The notes under the pieces: model-generated
The model's database searches: none
What the model was told of the DNA's origin: nothing
The model's input: the letters and a program-made list of their open reading frames with translations, nothing else
DNA from: Arcicella rosea
GTDB lineage: Bacteria > Bacteroidota > Bacteroidia > Cytophagales > Spirosomataceae
DNA length: 64,000 nucleotides
Assembly (NCBI RefSeq): GCF_014204325.1
Contig: NZ_JACHKT010000018.1
Coordinates: forward strand, 1 to 64,000
Direction: 5' to 3'
Made by a program: the position numbers and the translations under genes
Shown here: piece by piece, positions 1,196-19,486 of the stretch
How positions within the stretch are numbered: the stretch's first letter is position 1
How the letters are laid out: each line of letters begins with the position of its first letter

Positions 1196-1253
1196 GTAGC
1201 ACGAGTTTCCAACTCGTAAAGCAACTATTACACGAGTTGGAAACTCGTGCTAC
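1196..1253. repeat. BIME-like inverted pair of REP sequences, copy 1
   Basis: Two perfect 22-bp arms (1196-1217 and 1232-1253) enclose a 14-base loop. Each arm begins at its outer end with the tetranucleotide GTAG, followed by its own hairpin, ACGAGTT-TCC-AACTCGT. A GTAG foot plus a short hairpin, present twice in inverted orientation, is the classical architecture of a BIME made of two REP sequences. It lies immediately after the stop codon of the PLP enzyme. Further copies are at 1533 and 32027, and a variant is at 31306. Confidence 0.8.
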
Positions 1254-1265
1254 GGAAATTATACT

Positions 1266-1496
1266 TATTTTACTAGATGACCATTACATTTCACTAGATG
1301 GCAATTTAATCAAACAAGATGACTATTCCATTTTACTAGATGACAGTTCCATCAAACAAGACGACCATTCTATTTTACTAGATGACAGTAACATCAAACA
1401 AGATGACTATTCTATTTTACTAGATGACAATTTCATCGAACAAGATGTCGATTCCATTTTACTAGATGGCACTTACATCGAACAAGATGTCGATTA
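1266..1496. repeat. 21-bp tandem repeat array 1 (11 units)
   Basis: Eleven contiguous units, every one exactly 21 bp long, although the sequence between units is degenerate. Two unit types alternate: one contains TTTTACTAGATGAC, the other ATCAAACAAGATGAC, giving a 42-bp higher-order period. BIME-like hairpins flank the array on both sides (1196-1253 and 1533-1592). One forward frame stays open and would read alternating heptads ILLDDSS and IKQDDHS, but it starts inside the hairpin and overlaps the preceding gene, so coding is doubtful. There is no other gene between 1190 and 1616. Confidence 0.85.
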
Positions 1497-1532
1497 TATT
1501 CAAATTATGAGAATTTTGATTGATAATGAACA

Positions 1533-1592
1533 GTAGTACGAGTTTCCAACTCGTAATTAACGATTACTTTACGAGTTGGAAACTCGTGCTAC
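1533..1592. repeat. BIME-like inverted pair of REP sequences, copy 2
   Basis: Arms at 1533-1554 and 1571-1592 have the same GTAG foot and ACGAGTT-TCC-AACTCGT hairpin as copy 1, with one outer mismatch. The loop (AATTAACGATTACTTT) is close to that of the copy at 32027, so the homology extends beyond the palindromes. It ends 24 bp before the start codon of the serine hydrolase. Confidence 0.8.
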
Positions 1593-8683: not shown

Positions 8684-9454
8684 TTACGCTCCAAAAACTC
8701 CTTTTATTTTGCCCCAAAGTCCTTTTGACGCTTCTTTGGCTTCTTCAATTTTTTCGGTAGCAACTTCTTTTAAGTCTTCAATTCCTGCACTTACTTCTTC
8801 TTTTAAATCATTAAATTCCTCTGTAGCTTCGGCTTTGAATTCTTCTGCTTTGGCAGCAATATCTATGTTTTTTAATTCCGTAATTTTTTCATTGACGGCT
8901 TCTTTTACATCTTCTAATTTTTCAGTCGCTTCTGCTTTCAGCTCAGTAATTTTCGCTGTTGCTACTACTTTTGCTTCTTCAAATTTTTCGGTAGCTTCGG
9001 CTTTAATTTCCTCAAATTTTGCTGTTGCTTCTGCTTTTAACTCTTCCGCTTTTCCTGAAATATCAATACTTTTTAATTCAGTGATTTTTTCATTTAATGC
9101 TTCTTTTACTGCGTCGAGTTTCTCTGTAGCCTCAGCTTTTAGCTCAGTAACTTCTTCTGCGGTTGCGGCCTTTACTTCTTCAAGTTTCTCAGCAGCTTCT
9201 TCTTTCAATTCCGCAGTTTCAGAAGCAACATCAATACTTTCTAATTCTGTGATTTTTTCAGTTACTGCTGTTTTTACTTCTTCAAGTTTTTCAGTTGCTT
9301 CTGATTTTAACTCTTGAGCTTCCGCAACAACATCTGTACCTGTAACTTCATTGATTTTATCCGTTGCAACTTCTGCTAAATCTTCAATTTTTTCAACAAG
9401 TATTGGTTGCTTCTCTTCTAATTGCTCTTCGGTTTGAGTTTCTTTATTTTCCAT
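8684..9454 (-). CDS. Lys/Glu/Ala-rich helical repeat protein
   Basis: An unrecognised 256-residue protein made almost entirely of amphipathic helical repeats, with recurring blocks such as ELKAEATEKLEEVK and NEKITELKSIDI at a higher-order period near 50 residues. No signal peptide is visible. The last 20 residues (SKGLWGKIKGVFGA) differ and could form a membrane-binding amphipathic helix. The repeats recall apolipoprotein-like or LEA-like helical proteins, but composition alone can produce that similarity. The start is set at MENKETQ rather than 10 codons upstream, because that extension has different composition. Confidence 0.6.
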   Translation of the reverse strand: MENKETQTEEQLEEKQPILVEKIEDLAEVATDKINEVTGTDVVAEAQELKSEATEKLEEVKTAVTEKITELESIDVASETAELKEEAAEKLEEVKAATAEEVTELKAEATEKLDAVKEALNEKITELKSIDISGKAEELKAEATAKFEEIKAEATEKFEEAKVVATAKITELKAEATEKLEDVKEAVNEKITELKNIDIAAKAEEFKAEATEEFNDLKEEVSAGIEDLKEVATEKIEEAKEASKGLWGKIKGVFGA

Positions 9455-19150: not shown

Positions 19151-19486
19151 GAAGATTTCTCAGACGGAATACAAAATCTCTAAATCAGGAAGCAAAATCC
19201 CTTAGTCGGGACACGAAATCTCTAAGTCAGGAAGCAAAATCTCTTAGGCGGGTTAGAGGTTTTCTTTTCCAAGTAGCAATTTCTCTTTTCTGAGTATCAA
19301 TATTTCTTTACCAAGTAAGCATTTCCTTTTTACAAGTAGCTATATTTCATTCACAAGTAAGCATCTTCCTTTTCTGAGTAGCAATATTTCTTTTCCAAGT
19401 AAGCGTTTTCCTTTCATAAGTAGCAATATTTCTTTTCCAAGTAAGCATTTCCCCTTTCTGAATAGCGTTATTTCTTTTCTATCAAA
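19151..19486. repeat. 21-bp tandem repeat array 2 (16 units)
   Basis: Sixteen contiguous 21-bp units with no length change over 336 bp. The first five are of the type CAAAATCTCTAAGTCAGGAAG-like (two 10-bp halves: CAAAATCTCT and AAGTCAGGAA). Later units alternate between CAATATTTCTTTTCCAAGT and GCATTTCCTTTTTACAAGT types, giving a 42-bp period. On the minus strand the units begin TTACTTGG or CTACTCAG, comparable to TTACTAGA of array 1. All forward frames contain stops; one reverse frame gives leucine-rich heptads (LLGKEIL, LLRKGRC) with an internal stop. No gene is seen in 19111-19823. Confidence 0.85.

Follow-up and report, generated by a model that had tools for sequence, protein, structure and literature searches.

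An intergenic tandem array of 21/42-bp units in Arcicella rosea, probably one member of a large class of minisatellites in its genome

In cyanobacteria, the repeats called LTRR and STRR have units of 37 and 7 bp, respectively. Arrays of the heptamer TAACTGA occur in Beggiatoaceae, cyanobacteria and some Bacteroidetes, as stated in the accessible part of the report on them (PMC4679880). Porphyromonas gingivalis contains tandem repeats of 41, 23 and 22 nt, and BrickBuilt is a 23-nt minisatellite located within a MITE of this species, according to the portion available of the corresponding source (PMC4596501). Across the literature searched, mostly titles and the openings of abstracts, no description was found of a single genome with many groups of 21/42-bp arrays.

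The locus considered here lies in a stretch of 64,000 nucleotides of Arcicella rosea (contig NZ_JACHKT010000018.1, positions 1 to 64,000), hereafter the window, whose features are collected in Table 1. Positions 1266-1496 hold eleven ungapped units of 21 bp, of two types that alternate and thus form a higher-order unit of 42 bp. Tandem Repeats Finder reported periods of 21, 42 and 84 bp at 1267-1500 with 0% indels, and the wrap-around alignment of 1266-1496 to its own 42-bp consensus gave 202 matches, 29 mismatches and no indels, so that both methods confirm the eleven units proposed in an earlier reading of the bases (the sequence-only reading); the units do lie within the borders given there, but the periodicity extends to about 1500. 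The alternation of two unit types, also proposed by that reading, is borne out by the identity at lag 42 (0.841), which is well above that at lag 21 (0.638) and makes 42 bp the stronger period; among 20,000 base shuffles of the 231 bp of the array, the maximum identity at lag 42 was 0.402. A 7-bp unit was not detected in this array, the identity being 0.23 at lag 7 and 0.23 at lag 14.

Table 1. Coordinates of the repeats, hairpins and reading frame discussed for the window
Feature	Position	Strand	Description
F1 array	1266..1500	.	eleven 21-bp units, two alternating types; conserved core CATCTWGT, minus strand
Left REP-like hairpin (inverted pair)	1196..1253	.	dispersed repeat; arms 1196-1217/1232-1253
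Right REP-like hairpin (inverted pair)	1533..1592	.	arms 1533-1556/1569-1592
Mechanical ORF, 118 aa	1180..1536	+	TTG start; overlaps upstream gene, crosses left hairpin and array; judged not a gene
Second window array, family F3	19172..19255	.	21-bp units
Third window array, family F2	19261..19481	.	42-bp unit; directly adjoins F3 array

The array occupies the gap between a gene of the aminotransferase family and one of the Beta-lactamase2 family, and the next protein at the locus carries a Por_Secre_tail (secretion-tail) domain. Promoter-like consensus sites number 6, versus 2.9 (sd 1.6) in shuffles, which provides no evidence of promoter function. Elsewhere in the window, at 8752-9401, repeats of 33, 66 and 102 bp are located within a minus-strand reading frame of 266 aa and probably represent a coding repeat.

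Inverted-repeat pairs were found on both sides of the array, in agreement with the earlier claim that REP pairs bracket it. Their arms, 24-29 nt long and 90-97% complementary, have many further matches in the same genome; these elements are dispersed intergenic palindromes occurring in pairs and in this respect resemble REP/BIME elements, whereas the array itself is not built from them. The sequence-only reading had further suggested that array and REPs were inserted or expanded as one unit, and that the locus be compared in related genomes. The two flanking genes are adjacent in all seven other genomes of the genus, and in 7/7 the gap between them lacks the array as well as the REP pair; the array is thus a gain in this lineage, unless it was lost in the seven others. 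This joint absence fits the one-unit proposal, but other observations, made by eye, do not. In five of the seven relatives (G001, G003, G004, G005 and G007) the gap, though free of an array, contains a hairpin or inverted repeat whose sequence differs, while no hairpin was visible in G002 and G006; the gap therefore appears to be a recurrent home for hairpins. Furthermore, only 4 of the 30 array entries have a REP-like hairpin within 60 bp, and only 2 are flanked by one on each side. Because both-side hairpins are so few and five relatives carry array-less ones, it is more likely that the REPs and the array came separately. This orthologous gap, upstream of the hydrolase gene (L044-L048), looks like a preferred site for palindromes.

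The window array is one of many in its genome. The fixed-lag scan covered 61 stretches of the A. rosea genome (1.264 Mb of 5.31 Mb) and yielded 46 tandem clusters, 21 of which have a best period of 42 bp (12 clusters), 21 bp (6) or 41 bp (3); two of these 21 (L123 and L191) are short, and another is the 21.5-bp array of contig 14. A 22nd cluster, L201, counts 42 among its lags. The remaining 25 clusters have periods of 7 bp (five), 8 bp (two) and 63 bp (two), with sixteen further periods found once each, and several of them are located within long reading frames. Heptamer runs of the same genome were noted at L066:15992, L111:16655, L120:9593, L128:8039 and L198:5439.

The arrays of this class do not share one sequence. 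Pairwise profile comparison of 16 representative arrays (120 pairs, with a null that preserves the 21-bp substructure) left at least ten sequence groups after every pair above z 2.5 had been linked. The arrays of contigs 1 and 32 (C1-L201) form one family with a z of 9.1, five further pairs are borderline (z 2.6-3.7), and all six links were kept in arriving at ten groups; the 41-bp family of contigs 10 and 30 stood outside this comparison. No motif common to different groups emerged from the 153 pairs compared for this purpose, as links with p = 0 occurred only within F1, F2 and F3, and three cross-family pairs had p values of 0.004-0.016. Family F1 has seven loci, the window and six others, and its units keep the core CATCTWGT, beside which some three positions are free to vary. 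Families F2 and F3 have three loci each, counting IS-split halves as one, F4 has four, and the 41-bp family has three, namely those of contigs 10 and 30, which represent two of the three 41-bp arrays of the survey, and that of contig 7. The units of the 41-bp arrays at L199:2165-2590, L210:1480-1890 and L128:12570-12830 (contig 10) contain a short palindrome. The F4 array at L207:1400-1960 (contig 20) includes a duplicate of the sequence flanking it on the left as well as an insertion of 3 bp, which may record array growth.

Searches in other genomes returned little. F1 had no occurrence in the 58 searched, seven of them of the same genus; F2 and F3 gave weak matches of 27-67 bp in three of 98 genomes, none of array length; and F4 and the 41-bp family had no match in 38 genomes each. 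In a wider contig collection, the F1 core pattern, which itself demands a repeated core, gave ten single exact matches in unrelated taxa, and two of these ten loci (L174 and L180) pass the lag-21 scan. The fixed-lag scan of 60 stretches from nine other genomes (976 kb) produced 29 clusters, of which none has a best period of 41 or 42 bp and three have one of 21 bp: L070 and L072 (G007) and L096 (G011). L072 has lags that are multiples of 7 bp; L070 and L096 may be coding or non-coding. G007, which belongs to the same genus, is rich in heptamer runs (L072, L075, L078 and L079), with ACTGATA units among them.

That the length of the unit is conserved beyond its sequence, as claimed by the sequence-only reading, is supported and proves to be general in this genome. 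Seventeen arrays aligned to their own 42-bp consensus have 393 mismatches and 5 single-base indels. Outside this sum stand the degenerate array of contig 1 (81 mismatches and 13 indels), the 41-bp array of contig 10 (30 and 2) and the 21.5-bp array of contig 14 (21 and 4), and all 20 arrays together amount to 525 mismatches and 24 indels; the F4 array of contig 20, with its insertions and repeated piece of flank, is also outside the sum. The REP control has many more gaps, with 89 mismatches and 17 gap openings over 12 survey matches including the query itself, a contrast that is partly biased because REP loops vary in length and the lag scan favours indel-poor arrays.

The window array is most probably a non-coding intergenic minisatellite and one member of a large class of the same genome. 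The observations in favour are the many sequence groups with a unit of 21/42 bp (sometimes 41), the multi-locus families, the intergenic placing, the strict register and the presence of an IS3-like element at arrays above expectation. Slippage or recombination in register would enlarge and homogenise such arrays, 42 or 84 bp at a time, and the identity at lag 84 is about as high as that at lag 42 in most arrays. Base changes would then persist, while changes out of register would be lost. The arrays would also seed new intergenic sites and offer tolerated landing places for IS. As for the length, a unit of two or four turns would most likely derive from the helical pitch, which could act during copying or by way of proteins arrayed along a single DNA face.

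The 20-nt end of the IS3-like element, AGCTTTTTTAGGATGTGACA, occurs at eight places of the A. rosea genome and in 0/11 relatives, and six of the eight ends adjoin an array (C8:63252, C9:7306, C19:626, C55:125, C11:135964 and C27:231, i.e., L130-L132, L134, L136 and L137), several families being involved. Two contig-end pieces encode rve domains, an OrfA-like protein has no Pfam hit, and the contigs break within the element, leaving no complete copy; the OrfA/OrfB layout is read here as IS3-like. When contigs 11 and 19 are joined, an F3 array reappears in register, with a direct repeat of 3 bp; contigs 27 and 55 together rebuild an F2 array, with a direct repeat of 2 bp, and contigs 34 and 5 yield a non-array site with a 3-bp direct repeat. 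Thus, the eight ends probably correspond to three insertions, of which two hit arrays, and to two remnant ends that also adjoin arrays. If the arrays were instead MITE cargo, they would form the inside of small non-autonomous elements with IS3-like inverted repeats, as BrickBuilt does with IS5-type ends. This would suit contigs 8 and 9, where the 20-nt end adjoins an array with no IS body following, the 8-mer TGTCACAT, found nine times in the survey, five of them no more than 100 bp from an array (two of which are exact ends already counted), and the F1 arrays of contigs 42 and 9, which have a common 137-bp flank at 74%. However, the inverted repeat at each of the six exact ends points its outer tip towards the array, which therefore lies outside the element and is its target rather than its cargo; the joined flanks describe an IS inserted inside existing arrays; and the flanks of the 17 arrays share little beyond REPs, the IS end and short matches of 18-71 bp, the four F4 loci having no common flank. 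An origin as MITE cargo is accordingly quite improbable, and the IS excess at arrays may partly reflect counter-selection of insertions that hit genes.

A second alternative is that the unit is a coding phase of seven codons, and that the array encodes a small heptad-repeat protein, an option raised by the sequence-only reading for the frame ILLDD/IKQDD. No stop interrupts this frame in the window array or in those of contigs 4, 7, 8 and 35, although by our estimate chance alone would be expected to leave some frame open in a short periodic sequence. Stops interrupt two of the seven F1 arrays: that of contig 9 has at least three in each of the six frames and five in the ILLDD/IKQDD frame, and that of contig 42 has one in the latter. 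The substitution pattern by codon position, a check recommended by the same reading, speaks against coding as well, since in 7/7 F1 arrays codon position 2 is the most diverse. A stop-free frame is absent in 6 of 20 arrays, and in the 41-bp sister arrays one frame cannot be kept. Heptapeptide coding was rejected on these grounds and is hardly credible. All 19 arrays placed against reading frames fall between the long frames called there; through eight of them, however, runs an overlapping ORF of 74-142 aa, and the array of contig 55 overlaps a neighbouring frame by 22 bp under rough borders. With regard to RNA, excess folding over column-permuted arrays was absent in 17 of 18 arrays (no z below -1.3), the 41-bp array of contig 10 (L128) being the one that folds better than its controls (z -2.1 and -3.3), and no known RNA family matched at the gathering score, with weak miRNA-family matches on hairpins. 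The length of the unit has also been ascribed to two helical turns, and 21, 42 and 41 bp do fit this reading, but it remains unproven because 10.5-bp AA/TT phasing, the sign of curvature sought, stayed at or below the 94th percentile of the permutations in every array. Composition harmonics have a signal at 21, 7 and 4.2 bp and not clearly at 10.5, no lag-7 excess was found over 11 families, and identity is slightly deficient at lags 10 and 11 (z -2.35 and -2.71, not significant over 20 lags); no conclusion is drawn from the harmonics or from this deficit. A third alternative assumes selected platforms, to which a nucleoid, partition or similar protein would bind along one helix face at intervals of 21 or 42 bp, so that selection keeps the spacing and the other bases drift. 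The two- and four-turn units in many groups, the F1 core kept beside its free positions and the few indels all suit such platforms, but the groups differ too much to be recognised by a single sequence-specific protein, the AA/TT phasing is missing, and the five queried families are absent from relatives, unlike a core function; selected platforms are therefore unlikely.

For the minisatellite class, a constraint of helical pitch on unit length is plausible from the numbers, to which the repeats of 41, 23 and 22 nt in P. gingivalis add. It can be suggested, very tentatively, that a process of this genome, be it a step of DNA copying or recombination or a protein lattice, measures two or four turns and makes or keeps arrays irrespective of their sequence, a role that nucleosomes may have for eukaryotic satellites; the P. 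gingivalis repeats could then be outputs of the same rule. Minisatellites of bacteria tend to be described family by family; here, many sequence groups with one unit length occur in one genome, and what sets the length is therefore directly testable. In addition, the arrays look like preferred landing places for IS and may show how a compact genome tolerates IS movement.

Compared with the systems described so far, the arrays are, like LTRR and STRR, dispersed intergenic tandem repeats of unknown function, to judge from the part available of PMC2408588. Their unit lengths are different, and the 21-bp arrays have no 7-bp periodicity. The TAACTGA repeats, as far as the accessible text of PMC4679880 describes them, are also intergenic direct repeats, and closely similar heptamer runs occur in G007, but the window array is not made of heptamers. 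The 41-nt unit of MITE464/PgRS of P. gingivalis is matched in length by the 41-bp arrays, as is its intragenomic dispersal, while PgRS differs in being bounded by IS5-type inverted repeats (PMC4596501, in the portion available). With BrickBuilt, as presented in that same portion, the arrays share spacer-free tandem units, many dispersed intergenic loci, a limited host range and a host of the Bacteroidota; thus, F1 is found at seven loci between long frames of its own genome and in 0/58 others. The differences are a unit of 21/42 bp versus 23 nt, almost no indels versus 0-6% per element, many sequence groups in one genome, and full IS inside arrays, which the available part of PMC4596501 reports as not seen for BrickBuilt. 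In place of a leader and tail with terminal inverted repeats, there is one common flank in 2/7 F1 loci, besides REPs, an IS end lying outward and short matches, and no common flank at F4. BrickBuilt is therefore not matched in two of its defining features that were tested, namely the unit of 23 nt and a leader and tail bearing inverted repeats; in kind, however, the arrays are close to BrickBuilt and PgRS.
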